Shown here one piece after another: positions 3,287 to 54,538 of a DNA stretch of 64,000 bases. The stretch is from Allocoprobacillus halotolerans. GTDB lineage: Bacteria; Bacillota_I; Bacilli_A; Erysipelotrichales; Coprobacillaceae. How positions within the stretch are numbered: position 1 is the stretch's first letter; every line of letters begins with the position of its first letter. Under the pieces are notes generated by a model. That model searched no databases. It was not told the DNA's origin and saw only the letters and a program-made list of their open reading frames with translations. The stretch is taken from the NCBI RefSeq assembly GCF_024399475.1, contig NZ_CP101620.1:2275608-2339607 (forward strand), read 5' to 3'. The position numbers and the translations under genes were made by a program.

Positions 3287-4063
3287 ATGATGCATAAAAA
3301 GTATTTTTTCTTTGATATAGATGGAACATTGACTCATAAACAAACAGGAGAATTAATAGAAAGCGCTAAAATAACGATTCAAAAATTGCAAGAACAAGGG
3401 CATTTTGTTTGTATTGCGACAGGAAGAGCTTATTATAAAACAAAAGAATTTGCAAAAAAAGCTGGTTTTCATCATATTGTCAGTAATGGTGGAGCAGCAA
3501 TTACTATTCATGATCAATTGATTGAAAATAGACCACTTGATCGTCAAAAAGCCATTGCCTTATGCCAGGAGGCGCATCAAAAAGGTTTTGGTTTATTAAT
3601 TTCACCCAATGATAACATTGATGTTATTATGAATGATGAACTATTTATTCAACAGGTTGGTTATCGTCAAGAACCAACACGTTATTTTTATGATTCATCT
3701 TTACAATATCAAGATATTAAGGATTACTACAAAATATATATTGCGATTGAACAAGAACGTGAACAGGAATTGACACTATTGAATTCTTTAGGACATATTC
3801 GTTTTATGAAAGAATATTTAACATATCAACATGATGCTAAAGATGAAGGTATTTTACGAATGTTGGAGTATGTCGGTGGACAAAAAGAAGACGTAGTGGT
3901 ATTTGGTGATGACTATAATGATTTGATTATGTTTAAGCCAGAATGGACATGTATAGCTATGGGAAATGCCTGTGATGCTTTAAAAGAAAAAGCAACTTTT
4001 GTAACGAAGGCAAGTTATGATGATGGAATTGAATACGCTTGTCAGTATTTTGGATGGATTTAA
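3287..4063 (+). CDS. Cof-type HAD-superfamily hydrolase
   Basis: A 258-aa cytoplasmic phosphatase of the HAD superfamily, Cof subfamily (type IIB), which typically hydrolyse sugar phosphates or related small molecules. Motif I is FDIDGTLTH near the N-terminus with the nucleophilic Asp, motif II is the ATGR region, and motif IV is GDDYNDLIMF. An SD of GGAGG at 3276-3280 lies 6 nt before the ATG at 3287 (a second ATG follows directly). It lies 20 nt after the AI-2E gene and may be co-transcribed, although TATAAT at 3262-3267 suggests its own promoter. The exact substrate is unknown. Confidence 0.85.
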   Translation: MMHKKYFFFDIDGTLTHKQTGELIESAKITIQKLQEQGHFVCIATGRAYYKTKEFAKKAGFHHIVSNGGAAITIHDQLIENRPLDRQKAIALCQEAHQKGFGLLISPNDNIDVIMNDELFIQQVGYRQEPTRYFYDSSLQYQDIKDYYKIYIAIEQEREQELTLLNSLGHIRFMKEYLTYQHDAKDEGILRMLEYVGGQKEDVVVFGDDYNDLIMFKPEWTCIAMGNACDALKEKATFVTKASYDDGIEYACQYFGWI

Positions 4064-4070
4064 ATAAGAA

Positions 4071-4106
4071 ATAATTGTATACAATTATACAAAAATATGA
4101 TATACT
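4071..4106 (+). promoter_or_regulatory. Promoter with perfect 18-bp palindromic operator, citrate synthase
   Basis: ATAATTGTATACAATTAT at 4071-4088 is its own reverse complement. It covers the -35 position (TATACA 4078-4083) of an extended -10 promoter, TGA-TATACT (4098-4106), 17 bp away. The core TTGTATACAA recurs on the ilvE promoter. A repressor of the GntR type would fit the GT-AC core, but the protein is unknown. Confidence 0.65.
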
Positions 4107-4136
4107 ATTAGTTATACAGAAAAAGGGGTGAATAGC

Positions 4137-5472
4137 ATGGATAATCAAATTCAAGATTTTTTTGATAAATCATTAATAGAAAATCAAATTGATAATGAAT
4201 TATATCAGACTTATTCCGTAAAAAAGGTTTACGTAATGAAGATGGTACAGGAGTTTTAGTGGGTTTGACAAAAATATCTGATGTTGTGGGATATAAAAAG
4301 GAAAATGGTGAAAAAAGGATGACTATGGAAGTCTTTATTATCGTGGAATAAATGTAGAAGATATTATTCGTTATCCTCAAAAAGAAAAGCGATATTTATT
4401 TGAAGAAATTTGTTTTTTAATTCTTTTTGGTTATTTACCATCACAGGAAGAATTTGAAAGATTTAAAAATATTTTAAGTGAACAGTATACATTACCAACT
4501 CATTATTTGGAAGCCAATATTCTCGGTTTTCCAGCAAAAAATCTGATGAATAAACTCCAACAAGAAGTTTTGATGTTGTATAGTTATGATGATGATCCTG
4601 ATAATGTAGAAATTATTGAAACATTAAATAAAGGTATTAATTTATTAGCTAAAATTCCAAGTATTGTTTGTTATACATATCAAACAAAAATTCATTACTT
4701 TGATGAACAGAGTTTGGTTATTCATCATGTTCAAAAAGATTTAAGTATTGCTGAAATGATTTTATCATTACTACGACCTGATGGGCAATTTACAGCTCAA
4801 GAAGCCCAAACGTTGGATATTGCATTAGCTTTACATGCTGATCATGGGGGAGGAAATAATTCAACTTTTACTAATGTTGTCATTTCTTCAACAGGAACAG
4901 ATATTTATTCAGCGGTAGCGGGAGCTATTGGTTCTTTAAAAGGTCCACGTCATGGTGGTGCTAATTTAGCCGTTAAACAGCAAATGGAAAAAGTTATTGA
5001 AGAAATTTCAGTTCATGCTTCAAATGAAGAGATAGAGCGAATTGTTTGTCGTATTTTAGATAAAGATTTTAATGATAACAGTGGTTTGATTTATGGTATT
5101 GGTCATGCTGTATATACGCTCAGTGATCCTCGTAGTGAAATTTTAAGTGAAAAATGTAAAGAGTTGTCTATTGAAAAAGGCCGTTATGATGAATATATGT
5201 TATATAAACGCTTTGGTGAAATAGCTGTGCAAGAAATATATCGTCGCAAAGGTATTCATGTTTGTACCAATGTTGATTTTTATAGTGGTCTTGTTTATAA
5301 TATGTTAAATATTCCTAGTGATCTCTATACTTTATTATTTGTTGTTGCAAGAACAGTGGGTTGGATTGCTCATAATATTGAAAACAAACTGTATTCTAAT
5401 CGTATTATTCGTCCCGCAACAAAATATGTTGGGGAATTAAAAGAATATCAACCAATTGAAAAACGTTCATAA
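4137..5472 (+). CDS. gltA: Citrate synthase (frame broken by two one-base deletions)
   Basis: Citrate synthase condenses acetyl-CoA and oxaloacetate, the entry to the oxidative branch toward 2-oxoglutarate and glutamate. Restoring one A at 4220-4225 and one at 4311-4316 gives a continuous 445-aa protein from the ATG at 4137 behind AAAAGGGGTG. Family features include ALHADHGGGNNSTF (active-site His), GSLKGPRHGGAN, GIGHAVYTLSDPR and the C-terminal RIIRPATKYVG. No other TCA-cycle gene is nearby, so a glutamate-biosynthetic role is likely (inference). The frame shifts sit in A-runs and match the pattern seen across the window. Confidence 0.92.
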
Positions 5473-14688: not shown

Positions 14689-15875
14689 TTTTCATCCTCC
14701 CATTGTTTCATTTGATTTAAAATTAAAACAGACAATTCATTTTTAGACATCAATTCATAATGTTGAATATCATCTGGAGTTAAAATACTGACAACATTTG
14801 TATCTCCTTGAAAACCAGCACCTTTTGTTTTTAAATGATTGGCAACAATCATATCACAATTTTTCTTTTTTAATTTTTGTTTAGCATTTTGAATTAAATC
14901 TTGAGTTTCCATCGCAAAACCACAAATAACTTGATGAGAACTTCTTTGTTGACCGATTTTGTAGAGTATATCCTGATTTTTTTGTAATTGTAAAGTGAGT
15001 GTATCATCACTCTTTTTTATTTTTTCTTGGGCAATTGTTTGACAACTATAGTCACCCACAGTCGCTGCCATAATAATATAATCATAATCATGAACACGTT
15101 GCATGATTTCATCGTGCATTTCTTTTGCACTGACAACATCAATCACTTCCACACCATAAGGTTTGGCTAATGATGTTGGACCACTGATTAATGTGACTTG
15201 TGCTCCCAATAAAAAGGCATGACGCGCTAAAGCATAGCCCATCTTTCCACTTGAATGATTGGTAATAAAACGAACAGGATCAATGCTTTCCTGCGTTGGG
15301 CCGGCACTCACTAAGATCTTTTTGTTTTGTAATGTTTTAGGCATCAACATATATTCAATCATTTCTAATAGAACAGATTCATCAGCCAACTTTCCTTTTC
15401 CTACATCACCACAGGCAAGAAGTCCAGCTATTGGTTCAACAAAAACAACCCCTGTATCTTTTAGAATTTGCATATTTTTTTGTGTTATTGCATTTTCATA
15501 CATATGAACATTCATAGCAGGAGCTATTAATTTAGGACAAGTTGCAGCTAGAAAAGCACTTGTCAACATATTGTCAGCCATCCCATAAGCCATCTTAGCA
15601 ATCGTATGAGCACTCGCTGGAACAACCATAAATAAATCTGCATCTTTGACGATATCTATATGAGTAATAATGGCAGGATTTTCATCATCGAATGTATCAA
15701 CATAAACTTTACGTTTTGTTAATGATTGAATACAAACAGGTGTAATAAAACGCGTGGCACTCTCACTCATCATAACTTCAACCAGATATCCTTTTTTTAC
15801 TAAATCACTAATCAACTGAACACTTTTAAAGGCAGCAATGCTACCAGTTATACCAATAATTATTTTTTTAGACAT
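14682..15875 (-). CDS. coaBC: Phosphopantothenoylcysteine decarboxylase / phosphopantothenate-cysteine ligase
   Basis: 397-aa bifunctional Dfp (CoaBC). N-terminal flavoprotein decarboxylase: GITGSIAAFKSV, the PASAHTIAKMAYGMADN segment and PAMNVHMYEN. C-terminal ligase: SAGPTQESIDPVRFITNHSSGKMGYALA and AATVGDY. Full length, intact. It is in the middle of the minus-strand panT-coaBC-coaX unit, which gives vitamin uptake plus three CoA-pathway activities together. Confidence 0.95.
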   Translation of the reverse strand: MSKKIIIGITGSIAAFKSVQLISDLVKKGYLVEVMMSESATRFITPVCIQSLTKRKVYVDTFDDENPAIITHIDIVKDADLFMVVPASAHTIAKMAYGMADNMLTSAFLAATCPKLIAPAMNVHMYENAITQKNMQILKDTGVVFVEPIAGLLACGDVGKGKLADESVLLEMIEYMLMPKTLQNKKILVSAGPTQESIDPVRFITNHSSGKMGYALARHAFLLGAQVTLISGPTSLAKPYGVEVIDVVSAKEMHDEIMQRVHDYDYIIMAATVGDYSCQTIAQEKIKKSDDTLTLQLQKNQDILYKIGQQRSSHQVICGFAMETQDLIQNAKQKLKKKNCDMIVANHLKTKGAGFQGDTNVVSILTPDDIQHYELMSKNELSVLILNQMKQWEDEKC

Positions 15876-15884
15876 TTGATCACC

Positions 15885-16474
15885 TTATTTCTTAATTTGA
15901 ATTAGAATACGTGAAACAATAACCGCAATAATTGTTCCAACAATGGCTTCTAATAAACTTGTTGTCGCAATAAGCGTTAAAAGGTAGGGGAGTAGTTTTG
16001 AAAAGGTCATACCAAGTGCACTAGCATATTGATGACCAAAGAACAGATAAATCCCACCTAAAACAAGAATTGTATTTGTCATTGCTCCTAAAAAGCACCT
16101 AGCCCCATTGCGATGATTGTGTGCTTTTTCAATTTTTCATAAATAAAACCTGCAACATATCCAATGCATACTCTTGGAATAATTGCAACGACCATACTCC
16201 AGAAAGAACCACTGATAAAAGGAGAAAAGACAAAAGATGTAATAGTAGGCTGAATAGTATTGATAACTAAGCTAGATAAGCCAAAAACCAGACCAATCAT
16301 TGCACCTTGTTTTTTTCCTAGAACGATTCCTGCAATAATAACGGGAATATGCAAAGTAGTAGCACGTAACGGGCCAATTGGAATAAATCCTAAAAAGGGA
16401 ATCATAACCATTAAAATCTCAATGGCTATAAAAAGCGACATCAATGCTAAATTCTTTGTTTTTTGTTTATTCAT
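15885..16474 (-). CDS. panT: ECF transporter S component, pantothenate-type (one-base deletion)
   Basis: Small hydrophobic substrate-binding (S) component of an energy-coupling-factor transporter, about 196 aa after restoring one base in the run 16090-16094 (junction GLGAFLGAMTNT). Features: PFLGFIPIGPLRATTLHIPVIIAGIVLGKKQGAMIGLVFG, typical of the pantothenate/COG4684 group, and six or so membrane segments. The start at 16474 is chosen because a strong GTGGAGGT SD precedes it. Substrate assignment rests on family resemblance plus the adjacent coaBC and coaX. The EcfAAT module is not in the window. Confidence 0.82.
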
Positions 16475-16628
16475 TTGTACCTCCACTGTCATTTCGTTAC
16501 CGAATACGACGTTTCTTTATTTTGTAAAAAAGAATAGTTAGTGCTATAAAAGTCACTACTTTCAGCATTCTTTTTTTCATTTCACATTATACATGGTTAT
16601 ATAGACAAAAGCAATCATAGAATATTAT

Positions 16629-51903: not shown

Positions 51904-52596
51904 ATGCTGAGATTAGCTGTCTTTGATGATCAAGAGGAACATTTGAATTATATTGTAGAAGTATTATCCAATGCTTTGGATAATACAAATTTAACTTTTG
52001 AAATAAAAACAATGATTCAGTGTGATTCTTTATATGCGCTTCTAGACTTAGAGACAATTCCTTTTGATTTCCTTTTTATAGATATTTGTACACAAGAAGG
52101 GACAACTTTAGATTTTACAAGAACGATGTATCAAAAATATCCAGATATCCAAATTGTTTATATAACGAACTATGATAATTACTATAAAGATATTTTTTAT
52201 TCATCTGTATTTTATTATGTTGAAAAGAAAGATTTGTCTTTAAAGATTGATCAAATTATTGAGAAAATATTAGATTATTATGCATCAAAAAAGTTCATGA
52301 TTCATACAAAAAATAAAGATATTTATTTTCAACAATCGCAAATTATGTATTTAGAAAGAAAATTAAGAATGACTTATATTGAAGATTGTTATGGTGAAAT
52401 TTATACATGTAACGAAAAATTATCTGATTTGGCTTTGCGTTTAAATCATCGCTTTATTAGAGTTCATGAAAGTTATATTGTCAATTCTGATTATATTGCT
52501 GTGATGAAAAGAACATCTATTGAACTAACAAATGGTAAAGAGATTCCTGTCAGCCGTAAATATCATAATCTCTTAAAAGAAAGGCTGTTCTTATGA
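51904..52596 (+). CDS. LytTR-family response regulator (AgrA/ComE type)
   Basis: 230 aa. Receiver with phosphoacceptor Asp in FLFIDICTQEG, Thr in VYITNYDNY and Lys in YYVEKKD; LytTR DNA-binding domain with KNKDIYFQQSQIMYLERKLRMTYIED and HRFIRVHESYIVNSDYI. ATG at 51904 after AGGGTG. Its stop overlaps the next gene (ATGA). Members usually control peptide-based signalling or membrane-protein modules. Confidence 0.92.
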   Translation: MLRLAVFDDQEEHLNYIVEVLSNALDNTNLTFEIKTMIQCDSLYALLDLETIPFDFLFIDICTQEGTTLDFTRTMYQKYPDIQIVYITNYDNYYKDIFYSSVFYYVEKKDLSLKIDQIIEKILDYYASKKFMIHTKNKDIYFQQSQIMYLERKLRMTYIEDCYGEIYTCNEKLSDLALRLNHRFIRVHESYIVNSDYIAVMKRTSIELTNGKEIPVSRKYHNLLKERLFL

Positions 52597-53415
52597 AAAA
52601 AGACATTTATTTGCATCTAAAAAATTAAGATATTACTATTTTACTTTGTGCCTTATGTTTTTTGTTTTTGGTGTTATGAATTATATCATCATGTTTTATT
52701 TTAAATATATATATAACATGTTTGATCCTAATATTTTTACTTTTATTACCTCGCTCGTATCTATTATAGTAGGATTCATTTTTATTTTCGTTATTTATCG
52801 TATAGGACAATACTATCGAAATCTTTATGATTTTTTCTTTCGTCAAATCATCAATCTTATTTACAGGAACAAACAGATTTACAAGATAATTTTCAATATA
52901 TAGAAAAACAGTATTATGAAAATATCTATCAGGAATTAAAAAGGCTGGAAAAGGATGATTTTCATCAAAGAATGTTATCTTTAGAAGAAGTCATTCAAAC
53001 ATATAAAAATACCTATTCTCGAAATATGATTATTAATAGTTTGTTGTCCTATAAATTTCAAACACCTCAATATCAACATATATCTATTTATACAAATATT
53101 CATGTGCCATCAAAGTCTTTTGTATCAGATATTGATTTATCAGCATTATTATTTAATTTAGTAGATAATGCTTTAAAAGGCGCAAGCCAAACAACGCAAC
53201 CAGAAATCTATTTATCTATGGAAGAAAAATATCGTTGTTTAAAAATTCATATTCATAATAGTTATATTAAAAATCAAACGGTTTTACCTCGTCATCATGG
53301 ATATGGTATAAAAATTATGAAAGATATTGTTGAAAAATATCATGGTGAGATGATTATAACGAAAAATCATCATTTTGATGTGATGATTTATCTATATGAG
53401 GAGGATGGTTTATGA
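52593..53415 (+). CDS. GHKL ATPase-domain kinase-like protein lacking canonical H-box (two one-base deletions)
   Basis: About 274 aa after restoring one A in 52619-52624 and one T in 52860-52862. Two N-terminal membrane helices, a coiled region, then the GHKL ATPase (NLVDNALKGA; HHGYGIKIMKDIVEKYHG). Where AgrC-type kinases have R-H-D-x-x-N-H the sequence reads LEKDDFHQRML, so the phosphoacceptor His is absent or displaced. It overlaps both neighbours by 4 nt. Best described as the ATP-binding partner of a split kinase, or an inactive kinase. Confidence 0.8.
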
Positions 53416-54284
53416 TTTTTGTCTATTCTTTAATTATGTGGTTCGATTTTTCTTTTTGTTTGGTATATTATACAAAATCTTTTTTTCAACCAAAATATAA
53501 TTTGATGAAATCATTTCTTATATCCCTTATTATCCATTTGCCTTATTCCATTCTTTCATGGTATGGGACATATTTAAGTTATTATCATTCATCACAGGAA
53601 ATCTTATTAACAATCGTTGGATTTATAGCGTTAATCTTTTTGTATGTTTCAAGACAGATATATCTTTGTTTTTTAACAGACGCCCATTTTAAAGGGGGAC
53701 TTATTTTTCAATTTATATATCTTTTTATGAATATTATACGTTTAGGATTTGAAGATTTGACAATGTTTATAGGTGGAATTTTCTTACAGTCACATCAGCT
53801 TGTCTATTTAGATTTGATTTATAAAATCATTTCTTTAATTGCCTTGTATTATTTTACAGGTGTGTTATATCAAAAGGTCAATATTATTTTCTTTAAAATG
53901 AAAACTGTTTTTGTCTTTGTTTTAGAGTTCTTTTTTATACAATGTTTGGGTGCGTTTGAATCTGTTTTGATAAATTTACTTGCTTTTGTTTTGAATATGA
54001 TTTTGTTGTCTGTTTTATTAAAAGAGATTGACCGTGATTATGGATTAAAAACATATCGTGAAGCGATTGATTATCAAAATCAAAGAATTTCATCCATGTT
54101 AGAAAAGCAGAGTCAATATAATGAAATCTTGTCTAAAATCAGACATGATGAAAATAATCATTTATTAACATTACGTTTGTTGTATCAACAAGATCCAAGT
54201 CAGGCCAAATCTTATCTCCAACAATGGCAAAAAGATATTGAAGAAAAGAGAAATGCAAATCTTTATCAAGAAAAACAGGATTGA
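53412..54284 (+). CDS. Sensor-type protein with H-box but no ATPase domain
   Basis: 290 aa. Six or so transmembrane helices (residues 1-210), a coiled coil (DYQNQRISSMLEKQSQYNEIL) and an AgrC-like H-box SKIRHDENNHLLTLRLL, followed by about 35 residues and a stop. The C-terminal GHKL ATPase expected of AgrC kinases is missing, and a promoter for the next operon starts immediately after. It complements the preceding gene, which has an ATPase but no H-box. Confidence 0.8.
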   Translation: MIFVYSLIMWFDFSFCLVYYTKSFFQPKYNLMKSFLISLIIHLPYSILSWYGTYLSYYHSSQEILLTIVGFIALIFLYVSRQIYLCFLTDAHFKGGLIFQFIYLFMNIIRLGFEDLTMFIGGIFLQSHQLVYLDLIYKIISLIALYYFTGVLYQKVNIIFFKMKTVFVFVLEFFFIQCLGAFESVLINLLAFVLNMILLSVLLKEIDRDYGLKTYREAIDYQNQRISSMLEKQSQYNEILSKIRHDENNHLLTLRLLYQQDPSQAKSYLQQWQKDIEEKRNANLYQEKQD

Positions 54285-54286
54285 AC

Positions 54287-54315
54287 TTGATTTTTATGAA
54301 TGAATCTTTTATAAT
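54287..54315 (+). promoter_or_regulatory. Promoter of hisS-aspS operon
   Basis: TTGATT (54287-54292), 17-bp spacer, TATAAT (54310-54315). Confidence 0.75.
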
Positions 54316-54325
54316 GATGTCAATC

Positions 54326-54517
54326 CGTTGAAGAAGATTAAATAGTGATAATCTTGTAGAGAGTCTGTGGGTGGTGAAAACAGATAGAGGAAGCTATGGG
54401 ACACTTTGGAGGAAGTTATGAAAGTAACCGTCAGTCGCGTTAAGACATAAGAGGGCATACAATGTATGAACTAAGGTGGTATCACGTTTTGAACGTCCTT
54501 AGAGAGGACGTTTTTTT
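54326..54517 (+). promoter_or_regulatory. T-box leader of hisS-aspS
   Basis: CACTTTGGAG at 54402, T-box AAGGTGGTATCACG (54473-54486) and terminator AACGTCC / GGACGTT with T-run (54492-54517). Aligning with tyrS, the specifier is GAC (54400-54402, Asp), with CAC (His) two nt later. Confidence 0.85.
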
Positions 54518-54538
54518 ATTTATAAGGAGGGAATAAAG

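Follow-up and report, generated by a model that had tools for sequence, protein, structure and literature searches.

Does the locus at positions 51904-54284 of the window, the 64,000-nucleotide stretch of Allocoprobacillus halotolerans DNA analysed here, encode a histidine kinase whose phosphoacceptor and ATPase lie on different proteins? In AgrC-type kinases, the H-box histidine is phosphorylated by the ATPase domain, and the phosphate then passes to a regulator. A preliminary description of the locus had reported two overlapping kinase-like genes with complementary missing parts behind a LytTR regulator, and had offered two readings, a split kinase acting in trans and the decay of a tandem pair. 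We regard the locus as probably coding for a split histidine kinase of the AgrC/HPK10 type, phosphorylated in trans, together with a LytTR regulator, and as belonging to a type of system in which the ATPase is probably often shared. Its features are as follows.

51904..52596, + strand: LytTR-type response regulator, 230 aa (PF04397, 4e-15)
52593..53415, + strand: gene for a putative membrane-anchored GHKL ATPase subunit without H-box, lying in three successive frames, with an intact homologue in the sister species G003
53155..53172, + strand: N-box NLVDNA of the ATPase (from the translation)
53296..53307, + strand: G-box HGYG of the ATPase (from the translation)
53412..54284, + strand: gene for a putative receptor/phosphoacceptor subunit, an intact ORF of 290 aa without ATPase
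54141..54161, + strand: H-box RHDENNH of the sensor (from the translation)

The regulator does precede the pair, as described, and overlaps the ATG of the ATPase gene (52593) by 4 nt. Its receiver match is weak and falls below the Pfam cut-off; in an alignment of 22 family regulators, the acidic pair, the phosphoacceptor Asp, the Thr and the Lys are all present in it, and the acidic pair, Asp, T/S and Lys occur in 22/22.

The 290-aa sensor follows the AgrC-type order, with a membrane part of about 6-7 predicted hydrophobic helices and then RHDENNH, a motif of the RHDxxNH kind. IRHDENNH occupies residues 243-250, placing His 245 at the phosphoacceptor position. The stop codon lies 45 residues past this histidine, and no ATPase was found downstream in any frame up to hisS, which follows behind a T-box-like leader at 54300-54538 (seen by eye). 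The sensor thus matches the earlier account of a multi-helix protein with an intact H-box and no ATPase. AlphaFold predicted a helical hairpin around the H-box with pLDDT 70-80 there, in a model that is weak, like that of the ATPase, because both were built on two-sequence alignments, and in which the sensor membrane part has low confidence. Behind its H-box, the window sensor retains a second helix; the window system is among the more divergent members of the family described below.

The first kinase-like gene is less straightforward. Reading from its ATG at 52593 reaches a stop 11 codons on; a second frame is open over the transmembrane part (52646-52903) and a third over the GHKL part (about 52852-53415). 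Two one-base frame changes therefore break the gene, one near the start and one at about 52835-52905. The preliminary description, which did not mention these breaks, had joined the three frames into one protein, as the stop, the transmembrane part and the GHKL part sit in successive frames. Its assignment of membrane helices and a GHKL domain holds for the domain (PF14501, 1.3e-13 in a Pfam scan of the 3' frame); no single open frame in the window carries both. It had also placed EKDDFHQ at the phosphoacceptor position, and this does not stand: the motif aligns past the first helix, near the loop, and not at the H-box. The 4-nt overlap of the two genes, an ATGA at 53412-53415, was confirmed.

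Frame breaks are not confined to this gene. Within one stretch of about 18 kb, recJ, apt, hisS, aspS and a chloride-channel gene are also broken, and all five are intact in G003. Some of this set are essential genes in bacteria. The five breaks lie at about 46600, 48130, 55140, 55890 and 63045, and the assembly appears to contain frequent one-base errors. Because conserved and partly essential neighbours are similarly broken, sequencing error is the most likely cause of both breaks in the ATPase gene. An assembly of this quality also invites the suspicion that the pair is an artefact, one ordinary kinase gene split by sequencing or assembly errors. However, in the window the ATPase half comes first and the receptor half second, an order that a frame shift in one kinase gene cannot produce; most ATPase halves have two transmembrane helices of their own; and the layout recurs with intact frames in independent assemblies. 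For the family, the artefact reading is already contradicted, and overall we regard it as extremely improbable.

The same pair is present in Massilimicrobiota timonensis An13 (G003), which belongs to the same genus as the window genome. There, relA and hisS flank the pair as they do in the window genome, and the ATPase and sensor genes again overlap by 4 nt. The G003 sensor has 285 aa, is 47% identical to the window sensor across its length and ends at the same point. The G003 ATPase (P0004) is intact, with 247 aa, about 50% identity to the window fragment and a PF14501 match of 2e-19; it has no H-box, and a non-His residue aligns with the phosphoacceptor position. The regulators at the two loci share 67% identity. 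Between the window and G003, dN/dS was 0.49 for the GHKL frame and 0.48 for the sensor, which shows the same level of constraint on the broken frame and on the intact gene. Complementary halves, as first described, are thus found again in G003 at 47-50% identity, and the split recurs in 21 genomes (below); only the picture of two complete overlapping genes fails in the window, where the first is broken over three frames. Full-length kinases at both positions, named beforehand as the refuting result, were looked for in relatives, and none were found.

In G003, a gene for an IS-type transposase separates the regulator from the ATPase gene (L007 8655-9773). The ATPase beside it has one predicted N-terminal transmembrane helix; its start may be truncated, since most relatives have two. 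Searches with the window sensor gave no match in the other three genomes of the genus. A peptide-pattern scan of genome contigs matched only the An13 locus when the two-sequence sensor alignment was used, and nothing when a single sensor was used. Apart from split systems, the GHKL kinases examined in the genus were full-length except for two, one spread over two frames in G000 (L020) and one ending at a contig edge (L023).

A second split system lies about 6 kb from the first in G003, in the opposite gene order (L007 196-1831): a LytTR regulator, a multi-helix sensor that ends 24 residues past the His of RHDIIN, and a GHKL protein with two transmembrane helices and no H-box. Two loci in G001 (L019 and L056) are split operons of the same kind. 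With the parts of this second system as queries, three-gene operons with all frames intact were recovered in other genera, and then in a second family. Across this order of gut bacteria, in which 315 genomes were searched, the split layout was found in 21 genomes from 13 genera and two families, and 44 sensors, 22 ATPases and 22 regulators were annotated. Each system combines a LytTR regulator and one membrane-anchored GHKL ATPase lacking the histidine with one to four multi-helix sensors; the frequent pairing of one ATPase with several sensors had no place in the preliminary description. With R for regulator, A for ATPase and S for sensor, the layouts include the following.

R-A-S: G129, G065
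R-S-A: G035, G037, G041
R-A-S-S: G107, G236
R-A-S-S-S: G066, G081
R-S-A-S-S: G089
S-S-R-S-A: G058
S-S-S-S-A-R: G010
S-A-R: G019, G041
Regulator and ATPase frame-broken, then four sensors: G308

Neighbouring genes are separated by 20 nt or less in 53/58 cases and overlap in 17/58. In G237 (L169), the regulator and ATPase lie at 3559-5159 and the sensor at 15695-16570, about 10 kb off, next to a very large surface-protein gene; the parts of a system can therefore be dispersed. The G035 regulator (L119 252-785) is shortened and has an odd C-terminal sequence, for which an insertion and a contig chimera are the two candidates.

Sensors, which diverge fast, were identified from their position, helices and H-box. 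The short ATPase subunits scored at least 150 bits against the ATPase profile and full-length kinases about 145 bits or less, a gap that is partly built in because the profile was made from family members; the exceptions were G019, whose subunit reached 141 bits, and the frame-broken copy in the window, at 126 bits. Wider samples comprised 395 genomes of the class and 392 of the phylum, order members included, and G065 came up in the class-wide list only. Outside the order, the stronger profile matches in these samples were frames of at least 340 aa; lower in the lists stood a few short frames of 222-274 aa, and the one examined has its own histidine. A candidate from another order, L167, was ruled out as a split ATPase because its ATPase frame contains KFHDLKHQ. 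Another fifteen loci, chiefly short GHKL frames, were also considered; those that could be classified are ordinary kinases with an H-box in the same frame (for example RHDYHN), several of which served as controls. L113 was rejected as a chance match.

Across the family, the division of parts is the same. HDxxN/H is present in 44/44 sensors, one of which has HDxxH, and the sensors end 9-46 residues past the H-box histidine, the short-tailed ones just 9-26 residues past it. The pattern [RKNQH]HDxxN/H fell within the last 60 residues in 44/44 sensors, compared with 0.06% of shuffled sensors. Conversely, the N-box NxxDN(A/G) and HGxG are each found in 22/22 intact ATPase subunits. At the aligned H-box column, His stands in 16/16 full-length control kinases and a different residue in 21/22 ATPase subunits, with the caution that single placements are approximate because the column falls in a divergent helical region. 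The exception is a subunit of G041 with KHD (G041a, L116 5139-5978), possibly an intermediate in the loss of the histidine; in the G237 ATPase, EHD occurs eight columns upstream. Phosphoacceptor histidine and ATPase domain are thus carried by separate, linked gene products in shared operons. The HPK10/AgrC arrangement of sensor, H-box and ATPase in one polypeptide is seen neither in the window or G003 nor in the wider family. As read from the aligned sequences, both the division of parts and its conservation are features of the family.

In fourteen pairs, dN/dS was 0.08-0.29 (one further pair was saturated), values below 1 that indicate purifying selection on the split parts. These values bear on the second of the original readings, that complementary losses reduced one or two full-length ancestral kinases to these genes. 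The broken frame of the window ATPase and the transposase gene between regulator and ATPase gene in G003 are what such decay might leave. However, both halves are intact in G003 and about twenty further genomes, the identical parts are missing every time, and the window sensor is itself intact. With both halves conserved and dN/dS below 1, decay is contradicted for the family and could apply to the single window copy only; we consider it very improbable.

The ATPase subunits fell into three groups, and an AU test did not reject a single clade (p 0.57), a result compatible with one or with several origins of the split. The solved structures closest to their profile are the AgrC kinase modules 4bxi and 6e52, which also match in fold. 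Pfam scans of the system proteins gave GHKL, LytTR/receiver and weak SPOB_a matches only, and none of the CheA domains P1, P3 and P5. AgrC/ComD (HPK10) with AgrA/ComE resemble the systems described here in the multi-helix membrane sensor, the RHDxxN H-box, the PF14501-type GHKL domain and the LytTR regulator. AgrC, however, is one polypeptide, whereas in these systems different genes encode the H-box and the ATPase, and the latter is anchored in the membrane on its own.

With H-box and ATPase on different membrane proteins and their genes coupled, a membrane hetero-oligomer with trans-phosphorylation is the simplest explanation. In the proposed mechanism, the 290-aa membrane protein would serve as both receptor and phosphoacceptor, its ligand being a peptide or other small molecule by analogy with AgrC. 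The receptor and the membrane-anchored ATPase without histidine would assemble in the membrane, the ATPase domain would phosphorylate the receptor H-box in trans, and the phosphoryl group would then go from the receptor to the LytTR regulator. Of the split kinase acting in trans that was first suggested, the architecture is strongly supported by the conserved halves; phosphorylation in trans is an inference from that architecture. The KHD of G041a and the frame-broken state of the window ATPase as sequenced count against the split-kinase reading. A further counterpoint is that the short-tailed sensors hold the first helix alone; a normal dimerisation domain has a second, which here must be supplied from elsewhere, by the ATPase subunit, or else be dispensable.

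The receptors could alternatively act on the regulator as phosphatases or relays, with the ATPase as a pseudokinase-like allosteric partner in the manner of RocA and CovS, and with phosphate supplied by a complete kinase elsewhere or by acetyl phosphate. HDxxN motifs serve dephosphorylation as well, and several full-length GHKL kinases are present in the genomes. A precedent exists in group A Streptococcus, where RocA, a membrane protein that resembles histidine kinases but does not need its own histidine, acts as a pseudokinase through CovS (PMC7028121). The RocA catalytic domain, however, is degenerate and lacks several usual residues (PMC7028121), and it partners a complete kinase, CovS. 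In the family described here, no RocA-like loss of nucleotide-binding residues is seen, the N- and G-boxes of the ATPase halves being intact in 22/22, and the partner has no ATPase; receptor, ATPase and regulator genes, moreover, remain together. We therefore judge the phosphatase or relay alternative unlikely, and retain the split kinase as the preferred reading.

Kinases divided over two proteins have precedents. In Rhodobacter sphaeroides, CheA3 and CheA4 form a bipartite chemotaxis kinase, active only together (PMC3591291). There, too, phosphoacceptor and ATPase lie on different proteins; the pair, however, has P1 to P5 CheA architecture, is soluble and bound to a chemoreceptor cluster, and acts on CheY6, unlike the AgrC-type membrane receptors found here, which go with a LytTR regulator and of which several often accompany one ATPase. 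Hik36/Hik43 (PilL-N/PilL-C) of Synechocystis, a split CheA homologue and, with Rre6, a two-component system (PMC7656254), likewise spreads a kinase over two genes with one regulator, but is no membrane receptor, and its genes are non-adjacent by locus tags (slr0073, slr0322). The paper on CheA3/CheA4 also reports that artificially split EnvZ stays active, predicts split receptor kinases from domain counts, and as of 2013 counts 1556 HisKA proteins without a HATPase domain in SMART (PMC3591291); archaeal HisKA proteins without HATPase appear in a 2018 census (PMC5847659). Such proteins resemble the sensors here in joining a sensor to an H-box domain without ATPase, in several copies per genome, but they are of the HisKA type with PAS/GAF sensors, and the portions of these two papers that deal with them describe no linked ATPase subunit lacking the histidine (PMC5847659; PMC3591291). 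Our literature search, which covered few subscription papers, returned no natural split AgrC-type receptor kinase or multi-receptor form, and the word 'split' is absent from a 2025 review of two-component systems (PMC12471899). Split CheA kinases are thus already known; of a natural split AgrC-type family with several receptors, no report was found in the literature searched.

Where a single ATPase gene is found with two to four receptor genes, those receptors are probably alternative inputs to one common catalytic subunit, the ATPase. Tandem sensors within one operon are 20-70% identical and all have the H-box, which suggests that the arrangement of several receptors and one ATPase is maintained and is not fresh duplication. 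Receptor multiplexing, in which one membrane catalytic subunit would serve several receptor-phosphoacceptors and one LytTR regulator, seems to us to stand at even odds. If so, inputs would be gained by adding receptor genes without extra kinases, a logic like that of a receptor with a detachable kinase, for which the literature searched offered no description among bacterial receptor kinases. The conserved operons, in which an ATPase goes with one, two, three or four receptors, make up a natural series with parts of assay size. They would allow tests of how a histidine kinase works with acceptor helix and ATPase on separate chains, and of whether splitting yields the switch-like responses predicted by theory. 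The analysis also suggests a role as phosphoacceptor receptors for proteins of gut bacteria that match no Pfam or NCBIfam family above cut-off.

Secreted proteins with Big_2, LRR, RCC1 or Fn3 domains flank several of the operons (L102 1897-10062, L104 219-11072, L118 7196-8302 and L164 688-2442) and are possible candidates for regulated targets.
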